This document shows positions 247 through 11,848 of a stretch of DNA of 13,459 nucleotides, piece by piece. The notes under the pieces were generated by a model. The model made no database searches. It had not been told where the DNA came from and saw nothing but the letters and a program-made list of their open reading frames with translations. Where the stretch lies: assembly GCA_030638765.1 (NCBI GenBank), contig DAOWDZ010000262.1, forward strand, positions 1 through 13,459, read 5' to 3'. This DNA is from Desulfocapsa sp. (GTDB lineage: Bacteria; Desulfobacterota; Desulfobulbia; Desulfobulbales; Desulfocapsaceae). How positions within the stretch are numbered: position 1 is the stretch's first letter; every line of letters begins with the position of its first letter. The position numbers and the translations under genes were made by a program.

Positions 247-278
247 TTCATCATTTCCGAATCAGTGGAAATGATGAA
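247..278 (-). terminator. hairpin terminator of the selenoprotein operon
   Basis: A perfect 12-bp inverted repeat (247-258 with 267-278) encloses an 8-nt loop. It lies about 40 nt downstream of the stop codon of the rhodanese-ferritin gene. Read on the minus strand the stem is followed by TTTCTTTATA, a U-rich tail. The stem is AT-rich, so termination may be modest, but position and shape fit a Rho-independent terminator. Confidence 0.55.
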
Positions 279-316: not shown

Positions 317-1123
317 TTAGAGAATTTTATCGTATTCAACACTGAGAAAGGAAAGGTGCTGCTTTTCTTCTTTAACCATAAATTCAAAGAATTCTTTAGC
401 TTCACCATCTTTTTCTTTTTTCGCCAAACGACTATACAAATCATATGCCTGAGTCTCAAGCATCATTCCAAGCTGGATAACATCATCCTGAGTAACAATT
501 CGCGATTGAAAATAATCTAACACCTGTTGCTTATCAAAGCCACCCTCCAATGTATTGTCGACAGCCTCATCTTCATTTTCGATATCAGGAAACATCGATG
601 CCAATTTGGCCTTATGACCTTCTTCAAATTTTGCCAGACGAGCAAGAAGTACTTTAACGTCAGGATCTTCACACAGATCCTCAAAAATCAGATAGAGTTG
701 CTGCAATCCCTCTTCCATGGCATAGCTCATCCGGAACACATCACTAAAATCTCCTGTGACAAAAAATTCCATTCCAAAATTCTCACTCCCAACTGCTTTT
801 CCACCGTCATAGGCAATAATACCACCTTTCATATTAAAAATATGGGGCAGATCTTCAGCAAGCAGTAATTGCGCAGCAGCCTTGCTGCGTACTCCAGAGT
901 GTCAGTAAATAAATGTTGGTTTATTAAAATCAAGCTCCCCAATACGATCGGTTAATTCTCGTACAGGAATAAGTATGGCACCAGGAAGATGTTCTTTCTC
1001 ATACTCCTTAGGCTGACGAACATCGAGGAGTTGATATTCATCAGGCTTATGTTCTGCCATGAACTGTTTAACCTCATCAGCGCTCATATCGGCACTCAGC
1101 GTAAACAAACTTTTCCAATTCAT
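317..1123 (-). CDS. Selenocysteine-containing rhodanese / ferritin-like (rubrerythrin-type) fusion protein
   Basis: A 268-aa protein is read through an in-frame UGA at 904-902 (codon 74); a standard-code reading splits it into 73-aa and 171-aa pieces. Residues 1-105 form a rhodanese domain: DVR at 34-36, HLPGA at 45-49, then the active-site loop U74-H-S-G-V-R-S80. Sec sits exactly where rhodaneses have the persulfide-forming Cys of CxxGxRS. The reading frame and rhodanese similarity continue unbroken past the UGA (KAAAQLLLAE, then GGIIAYDGG). Residues 118-268 form a four-helix ferritin-like domain with a full set of likely diiron ligands: E137 or E138, E167-x-x-H170, E223, E253-x-x-H256. The start is supported by GGGGAG eight bases upstream and by an ATGA overlap with the ArsC-like gene. 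Rhodanese domains move sulfane sulfur and rubrerythrin-like domains commonly reduce peroxide; a combined thiol/peroxide role is inferred. Confidence 0.9.
872..904 (-). promoter_or_regulatory. Sec UGA codon and bSECIS-like stem-loop in the rhodanese gene
   Basis: The UGA is at 904-902. After 12 nt comes a perfect 6-bp stem CGCAGC (889-884) / GCUGCG (877-872) with loop AAGGCU (883-878). The loop begins 18 nt after the UGA and contains two G residues. This matches the layout known for bacterial SECIS elements such as that of E. coli fdhF, where SelB binds a G-containing apical loop directly downstream of the UGA. The element lies in coding sequence for residues that are themselves conserved in rhodaneses. 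Confidence 0.75.
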
Positions 1124-1458
1124 CCAGTCAACTCCCCATACATTGTTTCGTTATATCCAACATACAAAGTAACTCCAACACGTACCGCGGGTGCCCGCAA
1201 ATTGCCAGTGCGCCCTAAGCTTACCTTCAGGATCTCTTCTTTAGATTCCGTACTCGGTGTATAAATAACAGTTTTCTTTCCTCTTCCGACATGCACACTC
1301 TTCATACCCTGGAAGATCTCCCAGGCGCCATCCTCTTTAATCACATTCTTGCGTGCATCAACGATCTCTTTAACGTTTATGTTTGCCTGCTCAAGGGCCC
1401 CCTGAGCTTTTGTACACGAGGTTCATCCCTTACGAAAATACATCCAGTCAATCGTCAT
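1120..1458 (-). CDS. Selenocysteine-containing ArsC/Spx-like thioredoxin-fold protein (UxxC)
   Basis: A 112-aa protein starts at ATG 1458-1456, seven bases after a GGAG ribosome binding site, and reads through UGA at 1425-1423. The N-terminus MTIDWMYFRKG-U12-T-S-C15-TKAQGALEQ matches the beta strand, redox motif and helix that open ArsC/Spx-family proteins. Spx itself has CTSC, here with the first Cys replaced by Sec. A likely cis-proline segment (LRAPAVRVG) lies near residue 90, as expected for a thioredoxin fold. Without readthrough only a 74-aa fragment from an internal GTG would be called, lacking the active site. It is the first gene of a two-gene operon, overlapping the rhodanese fusion by ATGA. 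It probably acts as a cytoplasmic redox protein. True arsenate reduction is doubtful because the family's arsenate-binding arginines were not identified. Confidence 0.85.
1389..1425 (-). promoter_or_regulatory. Sec UGA codon and bSECIS-like stem-loop in the ArsC-like gene
   Basis: The UGA is at 1425-1423. Fifteen nt later, 1407-1389 folds into a hairpin: stem GCUCAGGG paired with CCUUGAGC (eight pairs including one G-U) and a GGC loop. The apical loop starts 23 nt after the UGA, within the range of bacterial SECIS elements, and its first bases are G. Confidence 0.7.
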
Positions 1459-1806
1459 TGTTTTGCTCTCCAGCGTAGATTTTCTGTCATTTAGTTATCA
1501 CCATACATAAGAATAAATCATGCCTTATTATTTATATGTGTGGGGAAGAATGTGGGGAAGAGACCTTCTTCACTCTCCTTCTGAACCAAAATACAACAGT
1601 GGTTGATTATGGCAAGCACAACCCTGCACATATTACAGCTTAACCAAAAACAAAGCGAAAGTGTATTACGCTCGTTATCGCAAGAGTGGTTGGCTATAGA
1701 TGAAAAGGTGGGTTGTCAGCATTGAACCAAAGAGTTGATAAAAATTCTCATATCTGCTAGGAATCAAACCAATACGAAGTTTATAAAATATAACGGAGAC
1801 CACATC
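1459..1806. other. Intergenic region between divergent genes; no recognised gene
   Basis: These 348 bases separate the minus-strand selenoprotein operon from the plus-strand membrane protein gene and must hold the promoters of both, although no clear consensus promoter stands out. A 12-base tandem duplication, TGTGGGGAAGAA / TGTGGGGAAGAG, lies at 1539-1562. A plus-strand reading from ATG 1609 to TGA 1725 would give 38 residues but has no ribosome binding site and resembles nothing I know. The stretch could include a decayed gene, but I cannot identify one. Confidence 0.5.
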
Positions 1807-2337
1807 ATGAATGTAAAGGAACAATCAAATTTTGTAGGATTGCAAAAGACACAGATTAAATTTTCGCTTATTTGCTTGCTTTTGACCGGCGTTTTAGGGG
1901 TATTTCACAGAGAGTTCGGACGAGCTTTTTCCGAAGGATTATCGAGCGAAGCTATCTACTTTGCGTCGCAGGCACTAAGTTTGAGTCATGGGCACATGTT
2001 TAATTTTGGATTTCTCATCCCATTAGGATTTGCACTGATAACTTTCTTCGTAAAAGACCACCTCGACGAAAAGGCCATGAAAACACTGAAGAGATGGTTC
2101 GCCATCTATATGGTTACCGCCATAGGGGTGTTTCTGCTATTCTTCTATAAAGGTGTTCATTTCACAATTTATTCGAGTGCATCCTATGATTTCACTTTAA
2201 CTGAAGTGGATAAAATGCTCTACGGAGGCAGTATTATGATGCGAAGTATGTTAAATGCCTTGTTCCATACAGGTTTTTGGATATCAATTTTACTCTATTC
2301 TCTGCCATTGTTAAAAAGTTTAAAAACAATGAAATGA
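1807..2337 (+). CDS. Four-helix membrane protein, DUF2871-like
   Basis: A 176-aa integral membrane protein. ATG 1807 is chosen over the upstream ATG 1735 because GGAG lies eight bases before it. Four hydrophobic segments are predicted at about 18-37, 61-82, 98-116 and 150-170. The first ends in G-V-F-H-R-E-F and the second opens with S-H-G-H. This layout resembles DUF2871, where a (F/Y)REF motif is followed by a conserved H-x-H at the second helix. Several histidines at helix ends (34, 61, 63, 118, 154) could bind a metal or heme; that is speculation. It is a single gene closed by a strong terminator at its stop codon. Function is unknown. Confidence 0.8.
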   Translation: MNVKEQSNFVGLQKTQIKFSLICLLLTGVLGVFHREFGRAFSEGLSSEAIYFASQALSLSHGHMFNFGFLIPLGFALITFFVKDHLDEKAMKTLKRWFAIYMVTAIGVFLLFFYKGVHFTIYSSASYDFTLTEVDKMLYGGSIMMRSMLNALFHTGFWISILLYSLPLLKSLKTMK

Positions 2338-2482: not shown

Positions 2483-2554
2483 ATGGTCCGTTGTGAGATG
2501 GATCAGAATAATGAAAAAGCCCTAAAGTGTGAGGAACAGCGTGGAAACTATTGA
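2483..2554 (+). CDS. Possible 23-aa two-cysteine peptide
   Basis: ATG 2483 follows GAGGTG at five-base spacing. It opens a 24-codon frame (TGA at 2552-2554) encoding a charged peptide with cysteines at residues 4 and 16 and no hydrophobic segment. It overlaps the antisense 3' end of the FAD oxidoreductase gene by seven bases. The ribosome binding site is the only positive evidence; no family is recognised and it may be a chance frame. Confidence 0.2.
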   Translation: MVRCEMDQNNEKALKCEEQRGNY

Positions 2555-3678
2555 AATTTATCCATAAATTTTCGATCAATCCAATCCTTTACCATGAAAG
2601 CAATACGACCCGAAATCTGAAACCAGTCTTTACGTAAAACCCCTAATTTGTTCCCGAGATTAAAGATAAGAAGATAGTTACCACCGGGGTTAAAAGGCTG
2701 CAACGATGCTCCCTGAAGAAATGCTTTGAGGTTATGGAAAAGGACGGGATTTTGTCGAACTGCGTACACGCCTACCTTGGCAAGAGGTTTATCATCAAAC
2801 CAGATGCAGTCACCACCTCCAAAAATTTCTGGATGTTCAGGACATTGCAGATATTTATTCACACGCAATCCACCATCCGCACCAGTTTGCAGACCGGACT
2901 CCTCGAAGAATCCTGAAGGATGAACCCCAGTGGCTAAAATAATAAAATCAGCCTCCTGTGTTACTCCAGAATCAAAATGAAGGCAATTTTCATCAATTGA
3001 AAGCAGATGGCCTTCCTCTCTTATAATCACACCATTATCTGTTAGAATTTTACGGCTCTTATCGCTGGTTGCCTGAGGAAAGTTCGCAAGAAATTTTCGC
3101 CCTGCAAATAACAGCACCGTTGAAGTACTTTTAGCTTTACCAAGTAGCTCAGTCAGGTTTCCTGAAACTTCAGCCCCCGCAGGGCCACCCCCCACTACGG
3201 CGACAGTTATATCCTGTTTCCGTGACAGAGATTCAATTGCTGTTCGAGCCTGGTACAGACGTTCTATTGGCTTAACTGTATATATTTGGTCAGAACAACC
3301 ATGGATTACCGGTTTATTCACAGAACTGCCGGTATTAAAAGAAAGGAGATCGTAGGCCACAATCTGGCCAGATTGCAATTGCAGTTCACGAGCAGCAGGA
3401 TCGACCCCTGTTACCGTATCCCGAATAAATATTCCGCCCTGTTTCTCAACAGTATTCCTGACAGGAAAGCGGATATTCTCAGGAGAATATCCGCTGCCCA
3501 GCATCCCGGGTCCCATCCCTGAATAGTAATGATAGTCTGAAGGGCCGATCACAATTACTTCATGACCAAGTTTTCTTATGGCAGCAATCCCTGCCATGGT
3601 CACCATATGAGCGTGACCGGCACCTGCCAGGACAAGACGTTGATTTTTTTTCAATATCTGCGATTCAGTAGGAAGCAT
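2548..3678 (-). CDS. FAD-dependent pyridine nucleotide-disulfide oxidoreductase, like the SelD-associated N-terminal domain
   Basis: A 376-aa flavoprotein of the NDH-2/SQR-like group. The N-terminal Rossmann motif is VLAGAGHAH (17-24) and a second nucleotide-binding motif is VVGGGPAGAE (161-170). The ATG motif is at 249-251, GGGDC at 287-291, and the segment VGVYAVRQNPVLFHNL (302-317) is typical of the family. GAGHAH and the GVYAVRxxPVL stretch recall the pyridine-nucleotide-disulfide oxidoreductase domain fused N-terminally to selenophosphate synthetase SelD in some organisms. Here it is free-standing and no selD is visible. No CxxC redox pair is seen, so it is unlikely to be a classic disulfide reductase. 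The electron acceptor is unknown. A near-consensus promoter lies directly before the start. Confidence 0.8.
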   Translation of the reverse strand: MLPTESQILKKNQRLVLAGAGHAHMVTMAGIAAIRKLGHEVIVIGPSDYHYYSGMGPGMLGSGYSPENIRFPVRNTVEKQGGIFIRDTVTGVDPAARELQLQSGQIVAYDLLSFNTGSSVNKPVIHGCSDQIYTVKPIERLYQARTAIESLSRKQDITVAVVGGGPAGAEVSGNLTELLGKAKSTSTVLLFAGRKFLANFPQATSDKSRKILTDNGVIIREEGHLLSIDENCLHFDSGVTQEADFIILATGVHPSGFFEESGLQTGADGGLRVNKYLQCPEHPEIFGGGDCIWFDDKPLAKVGVYAVRQNPVLFHNLKAFLQGASLQPFNPGGNYLLIFNLGNKLGVLRKDWFQISGRIAFMVKDWIDRKFMDKFQ

Positions 3679-6907: not shown

Positions 6908-6954
6908 AATAAACCATGTCACTCTTTTATGATGAGTGTGACGTGGAGTTTATT
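6908..6954 (-). terminator. Long imperfect hairpin between the zinc-ribbon protein and EamA transporter genes
   Basis: AATAAAC (6908-6914) pairs with GTTTATT (6948-6954), and CCATGTCACTC pairs inward with GAGTGTGACGTGG apart from small bulges. This gives about 18 base pairs around the loop TTTTATGAT. The stem includes the stop codon of the upstream gene. The tail on the minus strand (TTTATTCG) is only weakly U-rich, so it may be a terminator, an attenuator or an RNA-processing site. Confidence 0.5.
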
Positions 6955-8683
6955 CTTTATTTGATTCCTTGTTCTCCTCGGGAGATTCTTCCTGTTCTTC
7001 TTCCAGCGCTTTTTCAGTCTCCACTTCTATTTCTTCCGACAGTTCCCTGGCAACATCCTCATAAACACCAAAAAGTCGCACATAGAGTACACCGATGAAT
7101 ACAAAGTACATTGGCACAACCCAGATCAGTCCAATTCCAGCAGGAATCATCGCAATCACAGCAAGAAGTCCCAGCACAATATACAAACCAAACACAGTCC
7201 ACCATTTTTTGTGGATCGCTTTCCGTGATGCTTCGAGAGCTTCCCATGGCCCCATTCCTTTATCAAGAATGAGCGGTAAAGTCAGGGCATAGCCAATAGA
7301 AAGGTATATTCCGGGGAGTACAAGAAGCATAAAGCCGATAACAACTAAAATGGTCTGAAGAATTATGGCTATGGTCATGGACAGCCAGCTTGAAAACCCT
7401 GCAAAAACCATTTTCCAGCTCACCCGCTGCCCAAGAACACTTCGCACACCAATCAACATGATACCGCCAGTCATAAGCATGGAGAGCCAGTTTGAAATCA
7501 ACTGAGAACCAAGGCTTACTCCCGCCACTACCATCGGGTTACCCCCGCCAACAAAAACCTGTGAAGCCGCCATCCCACCAAAGGTAACGGTGCAGACTAT
7601 CAAAAGCATAACAGCCATGGCTGCCCAGATAGTTCTCTTTTTTCCTTTAGTTTCCTGCCATACTTCTTTTATTAGCCCAACAACACCGAAGTCAGTATCA
7701 CCTATACATTCAGTTTCTTCAGTTTCGCTCTCAGTTTCCTCTGCATCGTCCGTCAATGCTTCAATTGCTTTTGGCTGACAAACTCCGCAGTACAATTTAG
7801 AATCAACTTCCTGTAAGAAATCACGATGGAACTCATCACCACAATCAGCGCAATGTTCCATTTCGGATCCATTCTGTTCTTCTTCATCAATGCTACCAGC
7901 CTGGCCCATTAATGACTGTGCTAAGGAGTCAGCTTTTTCTTCCTCAGAGACCTCATCCAGTTCCCAGTAGGACGCGTCATCCTCCAGATCTCCGTTTATC
8001 TTTTCTTCCTCTCCGCCATCCTCAGGATCACAAAGTGCGCAATAATATTTCGAGTCAACTAGGTCCATAAAATCGGGATGAAACTCTTCTCCACATCCGG
8101 CACAGACGACAAAACCAAAATCTTTTTTCTCATCCTGGATTGTTTCGTCATCCATCAGGGCAGAAATCCCGTCATTCTCTCCGATGGTATCCTCTTCAGT
8201 CACTTCATCCATCAAATCAATGTTACTGTCAACCACGGATTCACTTTCCATTGCAGCGGGAAGTTCATCAGGGTCTTCTTCAGCACCATCTTCCTCAAAG
8301 AACAAGTCCTGTTCCTCTTCTTCAAATTCAGGCTGGCACAGGGCGCAGTGAAATTTTGAGTCAATCTCAACCATTAATTCGGCCGCAAAAGATTGTTTAC
8401 AGACAGAACATTCCTCCATCTCAGGAGCATCATCGACAAAAGCTGTTTCTGTCTCCTCAGAGGCTTCTAATTCCTCCAGCTCTTCACTCTCTGTAACAAC
8501 TTCTTCCGCTTCCGGTACTGTTTCCTCATTAATTTCTGTAATTATATCGTTATCAATGATTTCTGAAAGTAACTCTTCGGCAACTAAAAAAACCTTATTG
8601 CATTCAGGACAACGCAGTTTTTTTCTCGCTAAAGAATCATCAACAGAACCTTGCACCCCGCAATGGGGACAATTTATCTTCAT
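6950..8683 (-). CDS. Acidic zinc-ribbon repeat membrane protein
   Basis: A 577-aa protein starting at ATG 8683, six bases after GGAGG; the frame is open to 8803 but that extension lacks a ribosome binding site and hides the N-terminal zinc ribbon. Residues 5-28 form an MJ0042-type zinc ribbon (C5xxC8, C25xxC28). Three more modules with identical CxxC-x17-CxxC spacing follow at 92-116, 194-218 and 278-302, each with an internal (I/V)DSK(F/Y/L)(H/Y)C motif. They are joined by very acidic, probably disordered linkers. Residues about 350-540 hold about four to five membrane helices, with an LPGIYLSIGYALTLPLIL segment and a WEALEASRKA loop. These resemble DUF975 and glycerophosphodiesterase-membrane-type domains. 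The tail is Glu-rich. Function is unknown; the soluble part probably faces the cytoplasm. Confidence 0.85.
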   Translation of the reverse strand: MKINCPHCGVQGSVDDSLARKKLRCPECNKVFLVAEELLSEIIDNDIITEINEETVPEAEEVVTESEELEELEASEETETAFVDDAPEMEECSVCKQSFAAELMVEIDSKFHCALCQPEFEEEEQDLFFEEDGAEEDPDELPAAMESESVVDSNIDLMDEVTEEDTIGENDGISALMDDETIQDEKKDFGFVVCAGCGEEFHPDFMDLVDSKYYCALCDPEDGGEEEKINGDLEDDASYWELDEVSEEEKADSLAQSLMGQAGSIDEEEQNGSEMEHCADCGDEFHRDFLQEVDSKLYCGVCQPKAIEALTDDAEETESETEETECIGDTDFGVVGLIKEVWQETKGKKRTIWAAMAVMLLIVCTVTFGGMAASQVFVGGGNPMVVAGVSLGSQLISNWLSMLMTGGIMLIGVRSVLGQRVSWKMVFAGFSSWLSMTIAIILQTILVVIGFMLLVLPGIYLSIGYALTLPLILDKGMGPWEALEASRKAIHKKWWTVFGLYIVLGLLAVIAMIPAGIGLIWVVPMYFVFIGVLYVRLFGVYEDVARELSEEIEVETEKALEEEQEESPEENKESNKE

Positions 8684-8855
8684 GTACAACCTCCACGTTG
8701 CTGGAACTCTAACCTGGATAAAATTACGGTAAGAGAAATATAAAACAGGTATACTGTAAAAGTGTAGTACAAAACCATGGCTAAAATACAGGAAAAACAG
8801 CAATTCCGCTTGTTTTTTTACATTTTCCCTTTAAAACTTTGCACCATATATCTCA

Positions 8856-9329
8856 ATGGAACTCATCATGATAGCAGCAATGGCTCAAAACAGAGTCATT
8901 GGACAAAACAACAGTATTCCATGGGAGATTCCTGAAGAGATGCAGTTTTTCAAAAAAACCACATTGGCCCATGCCGTTATCATGGGCCGAAAGACCTATG
9001 AGTCGATTGGATCACCACTCACAAAACGTCACAATGTAATACTCAGTAGAAATATCAATCTCCACATACCTGACTGCAGGGTAGCAAAAAGTCTGGCAGA
9101 AGGAATTGAATACTGTGGCGACCATGACAAGATCTTCATTATTGGCGGGAAAAGTATCTATAAAGAAGCCATGAAAACAGTTGATACCATCCTGCTTTCA
9201 ATTCTTGACAATAACTATGACGGTGACGCCTTCTTTCCACAGATTCCCGCAGAAGATTTCCGGGAAGTTTCAAAAGAACGAATGGGTCAAAGAAATACTT
9301 TCACCCTTCACACATATCAGCGCAGATAG
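8856..9329 (+). CDS. folA: Dihydrofolate reductase
   Basis: A 157-aa enzyme of normal family length that reduces dihydrofolate to tetrahydrofolate with NADPH. The N-terminus (M-I-A-A-M-A-Q-N-R-V-I-G), the substrate loop I-P-W-E-I-P-E-E-M (21-29, with E28 in the place of catalytic Asp/Glu), MGRKTYESIG (43-52) and the NADPH-binding IIGG (95-98) with Y102 are all present. ATG 8856 fits the first beta strand better than ATG 8868, although neither has a clear Shine-Dalgarno sequence. No thymidylate synthase gene lies beside it. Only 23 bases separate it from hrpB, so the two are probably cotranscribed. The region 8684-8855 upstream is AT-rich and divergent with the zinc-ribbon gene; I could not pick a convincing promoter. 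Confidence 0.95.
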   Translation: MELIMIAAMAQNRVIGQNNSIPWEIPEEMQFFKKTTLAHAVIMGRKTYESIGSPLTKRHNVILSRNINLHIPDCRVAKSLAEGIEYCGDHDKIFIIGGKSIYKEAMKTVDTILLSILDNNYDGDAFFPQIPAEDFREVSKERMGQRNTFTLHTYQRR

Positions 9330-9352: not shown

Positions 9353-11848
9353 ATGAAATTTTCTCTGCCCAAACTCCCGATTCATTCCATTTTACAGGAT
9401 ATTAAAGAGACGCTTGCAACACAGCAATCCGTTGTCCTTTCCGCTGATCCCGGCTCTGGAAAAACCACAATTGTCCCATTAACTCTCCTTGATGAACCAT
9501 GGCTTGCCCGTAAAAAAATCATCATGCTGGAGCCAAGACGCCTGGCGACCCGCATGGCTGCTAAACGAATGAGCGACCTAGCCAACGACGACCTTGGAAG
9601 AACCGTTGGATACCGCATTCGTTTTGATAAAAAAATCAGCCGGGACAGCAGGATTGAAGTTGTAACCGAAGGAATCTTCATCAGGATGATCCAGAATGAC
9701 CCTGAACTTCAAAATGTCGGACTGGTAATCTTTGATGAGTTTCACCTTCGTTCCATCCAATCGGATCTTGCCCTTGCTCTCTGCATGGATATTCTGGAGA
9801 TTCGTAATGATCTTAAAATCATGGTTATGTCTGCAACCATGGATAGTTCGAGAGTGGCAGGCATGCTTGGCGAAGCAGCGGTGATAACAGGGAAAGGCTC
9901 CTGCTTTCCAGTGGCAATTCAATATCTTTCAAGATCCTCTTCCGATTACTTTCTTCCACAGGTAGTGAAAGCCATTCATCGCTCAATTGCTCAGGATTCT
10001 GGTGATATTCTGGTGTTTCTTCCCGGTGCAGGTGAAATCAAGGCAGTGCAGAGACAGATATCAGCAGATGTTCTTTGCCTTCCTCTTTACGGCAATCTGC
10101 CACAAAAGAAACAGGACATGATTTTTACATCAAGTAATACAAGAAGGGTAATCCTGGCTACTCCCATTGCCGAGACCAGCCTCACCATTGAAGGGGTGAG
10201 TGTTGTCATTGATTCGGGGCTCATGAAGGTTCCGCAATTTTCTCCCTCCACCGGCCTGACATCTCTGCGTACGATATCAATCTCCAAGGCTTCGGCGGAA
10301 CAGCGCACGGGACGTGCAGGTCGTCTTGGACCTGGAACCTGTTATCGCATGTGGCTTGAAAGCGACCATCACTCAAAACCTGACTATCTGGCTCCTGAAA
10401 TTATTGGTGCAGACCTTGCCCCCTTGTTACTGGAGCTTCTCCACTGGGGCGTATCAGACCCAACGGAGCTTAACTGGCTTGATCCGCCAAGGAGTGGTTC
10501 TGTCTTACGGGCACGAGCACTCCTTGCACAGCTGGGAGCTCTTAACACAAAAGGGCTGCTCACAGAGACAGGCAAACGTATGGCGTTATTACCACTCCAT
10601 CCGCGCCTTGCTGTAATGCTGCTGCTTGGACATAAGCAGGGGCATGGATCACTTGCCTGCCACCTTGCTGCCCTCTTACAAAATCGTGACCTGTTTCGTG
10701 GTGCCGATGGTCATCAAAGTGCTGACATCGAAGACCGGCTGGATATTTTGAGACTCTTCAAGGAAGAGGAAACAGCAATTGTTCGTTCTCGAGGTGCAGA
10801 CCCATCACTCTGCGCCCGCATCCTCAAGGAGGCAGATCAGTATCAGCGCATTTTAAAGATACATAAAAAGAAACCTGCTCAGGAAGACTTCCATGAATCC
10901 GGTAATCTTCTTGCCATCGCCTATCCGGACCGTATCGCTATGAAAAAATCCGGTTCCAAGCAGCACCTACTGGCTTCTGGTCGTGGTGTCATTCTTCCCG
11001 AGGGAGACCATCTTCACCAGGCTGATTTTCTTGTGGCTGCACACGTCGATGGCGGCAAAAAGCAGGGTCGTATATTTCTGGGAGCAACTCTTCATAAAGA
11101 AGATATCACAAAAAAACATAAACATTTATTGACGAGAGTTGAACGAGTTGAGTGGAGACACTCAAAGGTTGAAAGTATCTCTGCCCTCTGTCTTGACAGT
11201 CTTGAAATTTCCACAATGCCACTTTCAAATCCAAATCCGGAACAGATCAGACAATGTCTTCTCAAAGGAATCAGGACACATGGAATCGACTGCCTGAACT
11301 GGCAAAAAAAGAGTCGGGAACTCCAGGCGAGAATTACAACCGCACACGCCATTGATTCCACAAAATGGGCTGATATGTCCGACAGTGCTCTTTTACAGGA
11401 TCTCTCGTGGCTTGTTCCGTATCTTGACGCCATCAAAAGTTTAAGACAGCTCAGAAAGCTTGATGTTTATACTATTCTCCACTCCCTGCTCTCCTGGGAA
11501 AAACAGCAGAAACTCGACGCCCTGCTCCCAACCCACTACCAGGCGCCAAGCGGATCAAACATCAAGCTCCAATACCTTCCGGGAGAGCCCCCTATTCTGG
11601 AAGTTCGTCTGCAGGAAATGTTTGGTACAACCGAAACTCCCACTTTCTATAATGAGAAACTTCCGGTTCTTGTCCACCTTCTCTCTCCTGCCAGACGTCC
11701 TGTTCAGGTGACTTCTGATCTTGCCTCATTCTGGAAAAACACCTACCCATCGGTCAAAAAAGAACTGGCTGGACGTTACCCCAAACATTATTGGCCGGAC
11801 GACCCGTTAATTGCCCAGGCAACCGCACGATGTAAACCCCGAAAATAA
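9353..11848 (+). CDS. hrpB: ATP-dependent RNA helicase HrpB
   Basis: An 831-aa DEAH/RHA-family helicase of usual HrpB length. Walker A is GSGKTT (34-39). The Walker B motif is DEFH (128-131), the HrpB form of the DEAH box, followed by LRS and SDLALAL. Motif III is SAT (160-162) and motif VI is QRTGRAGR (317-324). A winged-helix/ratchet region follows, and the long C-terminal part has the HrpB-specific features, including a P-x-H-Y-x-x-P-S-G-S segment around 725 and a final stretch rich in K-x-Y-P-K-H-Y-W-P-D-D-P, which is diagnostic of the family. It lies directly downstream of folA. Its RNA substrate is not established in general. The stop codon touches the stop codon of the convergent response regulator. 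Confidence 0.95.
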   Translation: MKFSLPKLPIHSILQDIKETLATQQSVVLSADPGSGKTTIVPLTLLDEPWLARKKIIMLEPRRLATRMAAKRMSDLANDDLGRTVGYRIRFDKKISRDSRIEVVTEGIFIRMIQNDPELQNVGLVIFDEFHLRSIQSDLALALCMDILEIRNDLKIMVMSATMDSSRVAGMLGEAAVITGKGSCFPVAIQYLSRSSSDYFLPQVVKAIHRSIAQDSGDILVFLPGAGEIKAVQRQISADVLCLPLYGNLPQKKQDMIFTSSNTRRVILATPIAETSLTIEGVSVVIDSGLMKVPQFSPSTGLTSLRTISISKASAEQRTGRAGRLGPGTCYRMWLESDHHSKPDYLAPEIIGADLAPLLLELLHWGVSDPTELNWLDPPRSGSVLRARALLAQLGALNTKGLLTETGKRMALLPLHPRLAVMLLLGHKQGHGSLACHLAALLQNRDLFRGADGHQSADIEDRLDILRLFKEEETAIVRSRGADPSLCARILKEADQYQRILKIHKKKPAQEDFHESGNLLAIAYPDRIAMKKSGSKQHLLASGRGVILPEGDHLHQADFLVAAHVDGGKKQGRIFLGATLHKEDITKKHKHLLTRVERVEWRHSKVESISALCLDSLEISTMPLSNPNPEQIRQCLLKGIRTHGIDCLNWQKKSRELQARITTAHAIDSTKWADMSDSALLQDLSWLVPYLDAIKSLRQLRKLDVYTILHSLLSWEKQQKLDALLPTHYQAPSGSNIKLQYLPGEPPILEVRLQEMFGTTETPTFYNEKLPVLVHLLSPARRPVQVTSDLASFWKNTYPSVKKELAGRYPKHYWPDDPLIAQATARCKPRK

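Follow-up and report, generated by a model that had tools for sequence, protein, structure and literature searches.

A predicted rhodanese-diiron fusion protein with selenocysteine, and candidate ArsC-like and flavoprotein partners, in Desulfobulbales

A gene that seems to be broken by a stop codon in Desulfocapsa sp. (contig DAOWDZ010000262.1; the whole stretch of 13,459 nucleotides analysed here is referred to as the window) very probably makes one protein, a rhodanese-rubrerythrin fusion with selenocysteine (Sec) in the rhodanese active site, as judged from the comparison of homologous genes. New beyond the original prediction, which had been made from the letters of the window, are an ArsC-like second selenoprotein gene and a linked flavoprotein gene. 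The statement as a whole, that a Sec-rhodanese/diiron protein acts in an NAD(P)H-fed reductase with ArsC-like and flavoprotein partners, is in our estimation probably right.

The list of table-11 open reading frames splits the gene into two parts, 902-1123 and 317-832 (features are collected in Table 1). That these two apparent frames are one gene, as had been proposed, is borne out by a 268-codon frame that stays intact downstream of the UGA and by full-length homologues, 47 of which were aligned with the window protein and are 47-76% identical to it. Pfam recognises both halves of the product, Rhodanese (PF00581) with 64 bits against a cut-off of 22.2 and Rubrerythrin (PF02915) with 53.4 bits against a cut-off of 22.8, and the predicted structure consists of a rhodanese fold and a helical bundle (pTM 0.55, with the orientation of the two domains not fixed by the model). 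A protein search with the window protein returned 424 matches (E <= 0.001); when a more distant member served as the query there were 2436 (E <= 1e-40), with both Pfam domains in all 120 of the matches listed.

Table 1. Features of the window discussed in the text.
Feature	Position	Strand	Remark
Rhodanese-rubrerythrin gene	317..1123	-	268 aa, one internal UGA; TAA stop 319-317
Predicted Sec codon UGA, residue 74, rhodanese active-site loop U-H-S-G-V-R-S	902..904	-	132-gene codon comparison
Rhodanese domain, residues 14-104	812..1084	-	Pfam
Rubrerythrin/ferritin-like diiron domain, residues 129-261	341..739	-	
Six predicted diiron ligands: E137, E167, H170, E223, E253, H256	356..715 (span)	-	
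SECIS-like hairpin, stem CGCAGC/GCTGCG (6 bp), loop AAGGCT	872..889	-	Loop 18 nt past UGA
Terminator-like hairpin, 12 bp with T-rich tail, just 3' of the rhodanese gene	247..278	-	
ArsC-like selenoprotein gene, UTSC motif	1120..1458	-	NF041106, 127.3 bits
Predicted Sec codon UGA of the ArsC-like gene	1423..1425	-	U in 25/25 adjacent copies, window included
SECIS-like hairpin of the ArsC-like gene, 8 bp, loop GGC	1389..1407	-	Single-sequence fold
NDH-2-like FAD/NAD(P)H oxidoreductase gene	2548..3678	-	Linkage across relatives
DUF2871 gene	1804..2337	+	Between flavoprotein and ArsC-like gene

To place the UGA in its family, we searched 193 genomes of the order to which the nearest named match, Desulfocapsa sp. 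(L001, genome G001), belongs, 137 of which matched with E <= 1e-30. Of the 150 listed matches, 130 were read at the DNA level; together with the window and L003, and with the duplicates L014, L015 and L019 left out, they make up a set of 132 distinct homologous genes, a few of which are cut by contig ends. The UGA at 904-902 had been assigned to the active-site Cys of the rhodanese, and the alignment agrees: it is codon 74, in the context Y-U-H-S-G-V-R-S, and the aligned residue is Cys or Sec in every one of the 132 sequences. The codon is TGA in 51 genes, the window included, and TGC or TGT in 81, with no other codon found; one of the genes counted as Cys, L104, contains a TAG and a TAA and was scored from its intact fragment. 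Further UGAs occur in some frames only at the extreme ends of the stretches (a terminal stop, or before the start), and the 20 listed matches outside the set are all free of internal stops. The active-site loop (U/C74, G77, R79, S80) is kept in 132/132, and there is no second conserved Cys column in these sequences, the next best after position 74 holding Cys in 25. In this alignment the UGA stands in for Cys at the family's only conserved thiol position, and we regard it as almost certain that codon 74 encodes Sec. A sample of the phylum (297 genomes) yielded 61 with a match (E <= 1e-30), 25 of them with one TGA, whatever its position. An unusual enzyme had been expected; with Sec in 51 of 132 family genes, the protein is no one-off.

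A 6-bp SECIS-like hairpin, predicted to start 12 nt 3' of the UGA, is indeed present there, and the Sec genes of the family support it. We scored two stem registers, with a 6- or a 4-nt loop, which were picked after viewing the Sec sequences; the Cys genes served as the control. All six stem pairs form in 47 of the 51 Sec genes versus 2 of the 81 Cys genes, and in a test against 2000 synonymous recodings of each gene p < 0.05 was reached by 46/51 and 2/81, respectively. Some stems pair despite changes on both sides (AGAAGC/GCTTCT, GTAGCC/GGCTAC). Since the window hairpin taken by itself has p = 0.07 against synonymous recodings, the case for a SECIS rests on the family, in which the hairpin is, by this test, under selection in Sec genes and not in Cys genes. 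The distance of 18 nt from the UGA to the loop is also that of Escherichia coli fdhF. A search of the window against Rfam gave no match up to E 0.5. The energy of folding over the 48 nt that follow codon 74 was dropped as a SECIS test in favour of the stem and the synonymous shuffle, as it separates the two forms weakly (mean -18.0 kcal/mol for Sec and -16.4 kcal/mol for Cys genes).

It could be argued that the UGA is an ordinary stop, through decay of the gene or an error of assembly, with either two separate products or no protein at all as the result. Gene callers do restart after the UGA, and several of the 120 listed matches of the window protein are only 171-200 aa long, among them P0089, the NCBI entry 'ferritin family protein [Desulfocapsa sulfexigens]' of 179 aa. 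Against this stand 51 loci that have a UGA at exactly codon 74, mostly with the selected hairpin and an intact frame downstream, and the restriction of that codon to TGA, TGC or TGT in all 132 genes. Because the same UGA recurs in independent assemblies, including the 3.98-Mb contig of genome G045, it is no sequencing slip. We therefore reject stop codon, decay and assembly error as explanations for a codon common to 51 loci, and consider it extremely improbable that any of them applies. P0089 itself, its first residue aside, sits within the part of the Sec gene of G045 (L013) that follows the UGA, and on this comparison it is a truncated annotation. As this entry illustrates, gene callers can split such genes so that the Sec and the rhodanese half are lost, and in this way a redox protein that is common among sulfur-cycling bacteria has been partly hidden.

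A quick tree of the family, built with residue 74 masked and containing several long branches, requires 13 Sec/Cys changes, at least nine of which are forced by well-supported branches. On this tree, then, Sec and Cys have been swapped at least nine times, and a family with so many switches is a natural experiment on what a rhodanese gains from selenium. Close relatives can differ in this respect, as do L004 and L023, or L017 and L018 and the window gene. In some genomes one Cys and one Sec rhodanese-rubrerythrin gene coexist, lying apart on the tree (L042/L047, L109/L075, L112/L072; further such pairs are L137/L078 and L146/L063). The tree also contains a separate lineage in which all ten of ten members are Sec forms (L049, L051-L054, L058, L061, L068, L071 and L082).

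The machinery for Sec insertion was searched for in 11 close relatives belonging to the clade around the window, which has 26 members as defined from the masked tree. We detected selA in 10, selB scoring over the cut-off in 10, selD in 11 and tRNA-Sec in 10, and the complete set of four in eight; one gene each was missing from G002 (full-length selB), G137 (tRNA-Sec) and G045 (selA). In the last, which is the nearest relative (76%), neither a family search nor a protein search found selA. The same genome, home to L013 and L168 and with a contig C1 of 3.98 Mb, does have selB, tRNA-Sec and a Sec-type selD. In every one of the 11 relatives, the top SelD match contains one UGA, as expected of a Sec-containing SelD. 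tRNA-Sec was present in 4/4 of the first relatives searched; among genomes that carry the UGA form its frequency, 41 of 48, is no higher than across the order, 168 of 193, which makes it uninformative as a discriminating test. Its presence is consistent with Sec, not diagnostic of it.

Immediately upstream of the rhodanese gene lies the predicted second selenoprotein gene, whose product exceeds the cut-off of NF041106 (ArsC_rel_Se_1), 85 bits, and whose TGA stop overlaps the rhodanese ATG (ATGA, 1123-1120). In this one gene UGA would act both as Sec codon and as stop. The two genes adjoin in 25 of the 26 clade members, the exception being L022, and the gap between them ranges from about -1 to 5 nt; the ArsC-like gene is of the Sec form in all 25 adjacent copies, including those at loci where the rhodanese has Cys. 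The scan beyond the clade covered short flanks only at most loci; at L081, a weaker ArsC-like match, whose matched part has no Sec, lies at a distance of about 92 nt. The ArsC-like UxxC family as such is already included in the 2026 selenoproteome inventory (PMC13188914, accessible text).

The flavoprotein has solved relatives that include NADH dehydrogenase-like proteins, and it gave a single match (E <= 1e-15) in 8/8 genomes checked. Its best NCBIfam match is TIGR03169 at 257.1 bits, below the cut-off of 310; this family, Nterm_to_SelD, we take to be a domain often fused to SelD. Across the order, the flavoprotein occurs in 92 of 193 genomes, with 93 matches at E <= 1e-70. Fifty of these matches lie on the same strand as, and within 1.5 kb of, a listed rhodanese-rubrerythrin gene, 13 of them upstream and 37 downstream (8-237 nt): the flavoprotein gene is upstream in one lineage and downstream in others. 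That separate lineages have the two genes in opposite orders is an argument for a functional connection between them. The other 43 matches are not adjacent, and 34 of the 42 genomes concerned carry the fusion elsewhere. Where wider flanks were available (20 loci), the flavoprotein gene was present at ten and absent from ten; the latter include all five wider loci (L150, L157-L160) of the third lineage, the separate one that consists of Sec forms throughout. Taken together, we judge it highly likely that the rhodanese-rubrerythrin, ArsC-like and flavoprotein genes are functionally linked, and the conserved partner genes provide concrete candidates for electron donors.

In the window, the flavoprotein gene is parted from the ArsC-like/rhodanese pair by the DUF2871 gene on the opposite strand. 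A search of the flanks at six further loci of the clade did not find this gene. Further along lies a gene for a 617-aa protein (6950-8803, minus strand) with a zinc ribbon (PF13717, just above cut-off), repeated CxxC and a hydrophobic C-terminal part, in which no family other than PF13717 scored above cut-off. It is followed by an ordinary dihydrofolate reductase gene (8856-9329, plus strand) and a gene for an HrpB helicase (9353-11848, plus strand). Promoter-like sites in the window number 8, versus 7.4 expected.

The second half of the fusion protein had been credited with a complete set of diiron ligands. This holds for the six that make up two ExxH motifs and two further Glu, each of which is found in 130-132 of the 132 sequences, the remainder being gaps. 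It does not hold for the seventh Glu of rubrerythrin, the position of which presumably corresponds to E97 of the D. vulgaris protein: here the window has Ala226, and the column is Ala in 129/132, Ser in one and a gap in two. The Pfam domain is Rubrerythrin, but the half is erythrin-like and lacks both the seventh Glu and the rubredoxin part: the 268-aa product has no Pfam match to a rubredoxin FeCys4 domain and ends seven residues past the rubrerythrin match. Between the two helix pairs lies a highly conserved Glu-Gly-Gly (residues 193-195; 547-539, minus strand), with E193 in 130/132 sequences and gaps in the rest.

The most likely reading of this gene set is a selenium-based reductase that is fed by NAD(P)H and acts on sulfane sulfur and peroxide. 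The flavoprotein would accept electrons from NAD(P)H and recharge the U/C pair of the ArsC-like protein, which in turn would relay electrons and reduce oxidised Sec74. The Sec74 selenolate could attack sulfane sulfur (polysulfide, persulfide or thiosulfate) to form a selenenylsulfide, or react with an oxidant such as peroxide to form a selenenic acid. Within the same molecule, the diiron site would remove H2O2 or O2, an activity that might guard a sulfur-metabolising anaerobe at the oxic-anoxic boundary. Compared with Cys, Sec would be the faster nucleophile and recoverable after over-oxidation. This chemistry of the Sec74/diiron system is offered tentatively, and we would not put it at quite an even chance. 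Somewhat more doubtful still is the more far-reaching proposal of an undescribed selenium redox system that runs from NAD(P)H through the flavoprotein and the ArsC-like UxxC protein to a Sec rhodanese-diiron reductase, couples the reduction of sulfane sulfur to the removal of peroxide or O2, and is distributed over Desulfobulbales and the wider Thermodesulfobacteriota with Sec and Cys exchanged many times. The accessible text of the D. sulfexigens genome paper lists nine rhodanese-related sulfurtransferases, with roles that call for further work, and mentions that oxygen is occasionally encountered at interfaces (PMC3739170).

The same components might run in the oxidative direction, with the flavoprotein and the Sec-rhodanese loading sulfane sulfur and the diiron site oxygenating it to sulfite, on the model of the sulfide:quinone oxidoreductase (SQR) - rhodanese - persulfide dioxygenase route. 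A known fusion between a rhodanese and a non-heme iron enzyme (BpPRF, 5ve3-5ve5) and the distant similarity of the flavoprotein to SQR chains speak for this, but the iron half has the ligands of ferritin and rubrerythrin, which differ from those of ETHE1-type dioxygenases. SQR, moreover, uses more than one Cys, whereas C291 (in GGGDC) is the only Cys invariant in 25 flavoprotein sequences, the next best columns reaching 10/25; on this count a flavoprotein of the SQR type is unsupported. Of the four relatives with names, two are Desulfocapsa. D. sulfexigens is a sulfur disproportionator, which would suit oxidation, but it is also an anaerobe, which would not (PMC3739170, accessible text). On balance we consider the oxidative route unlikely.

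A little less likely again is that the rhodanese carries perselenide or persulfide for SelD or for tRNA modification and is itself reduced by the flavoprotein. The TIGR03169 match of the flavoprotein (257 bits) points this way, as does the co-occurrence of rhodanese, perselenide and selenium delivery in published papers; however, that match is below cut-off, and in the 11 relatives the open frame with the best SelD match, at 350-419 aa, is not long enough for the fusion. In the ten relatives in which both genes could be placed, selD lies either on a different contig or, as in G045, at a distance of about 268 kb. A literature search on SelD fused to such flavoproteins found no paper. Delivery would also leave the diiron domain without a role, and 81 of the 132 family genes are Cys forms. 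We assign a similarly low probability to a function in iron handling, in which the diiron domain would be a ferroxidase or iron store and the rhodanese half a sensor of sulfide or redox state. Although the ferritin-like fold with its conserved ligands fits such a function, as does the absence of the rubredoxin domain and of the seventh Glu of peroxidase rubrerythrins, it leaves unexplained why Sec is in the active site and why the gene is linked to those of a UxxC selenoprotein and of a flavoprotein.

Sec rhodaneses as such are already known, being listed in the selenoproteome inventories of 2022 and 2026 (PMC9312934, PMC13188914). The accessible text gives the motifs UxxS, UxxG, CxU and UxxxxU for them (PMC13188914) and distinguishes rhodanese-like forms 1-5, of which forms 2 and 4 have the motif UxxG (PMC13188914, PMC9312934). 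The main text of neither inventory contains the words rubrerythrin or ferritin, and in what is accessible of them the pairing of ArsC_rel_Se_1 (NF041106) with a rhodanese-rubrerythrin gene was not found. The available parts of PMC2398784 and PMC8318568 mention Sec rhodaneses without using the word rubrerythrin, and those of PMC9751629 and PMC12998232 have nothing on a rhodanese-rubrerythrin Sec fusion. A literature search covering titles and abstract openings did not find the fusion either, with EMBO Rep 2004 and NAR 2007 as places where an earlier mention might stand. Within these sources, then, the fusion with a diiron domain and the gene set were not found in print.

Like the Sec rhodaneses of the inventories, the window protein has a predicted Sec in a rhodanese domain, and its U-H-S-G is a case of UxxG; in the accessible text no rubrerythrin or ferritin domain is named for those proteins, of which form 2 or 4 may overlap with the window protein. 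The Cys-form fusions, annotated at JGI as 'rhodanese-related sulfurtransferase/rubrerythrin', consist of the same two domains, but have Cys for Sec and a hairpin that tests as selected in just 2 of 81 genes. With rubrerythrin and erythrin the window protein shares a diiron domain with two ExxH motifs, and differs from rubrerythrin in its N-terminal rhodanese, in the lack of a rubredoxin domain and in having Ala226 for the seventh Glu. A similar rhodanese domain served by a pyridine-nucleotide flavoprotein is found in the NADH-dependent persulfide reductase Npsr (3nta) and in CoADR-rhodanese fusions (3icr). In these enzymes, flavoprotein and rhodanese are fused and Cys is used, whereas in the window the NDH-2-like flavoprotein has a gene of its own and a diiron domain is added to the rhodanese. 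Finally, the persulfide dioxygenase-rhodanese BpPRF (5ve3) likewise joins a rhodanese to a non-heme iron domain; that domain is a mononuclear iron dioxygenase of the beta-lactamase type, while the one in the window is predicted to be a diiron helical bundle.
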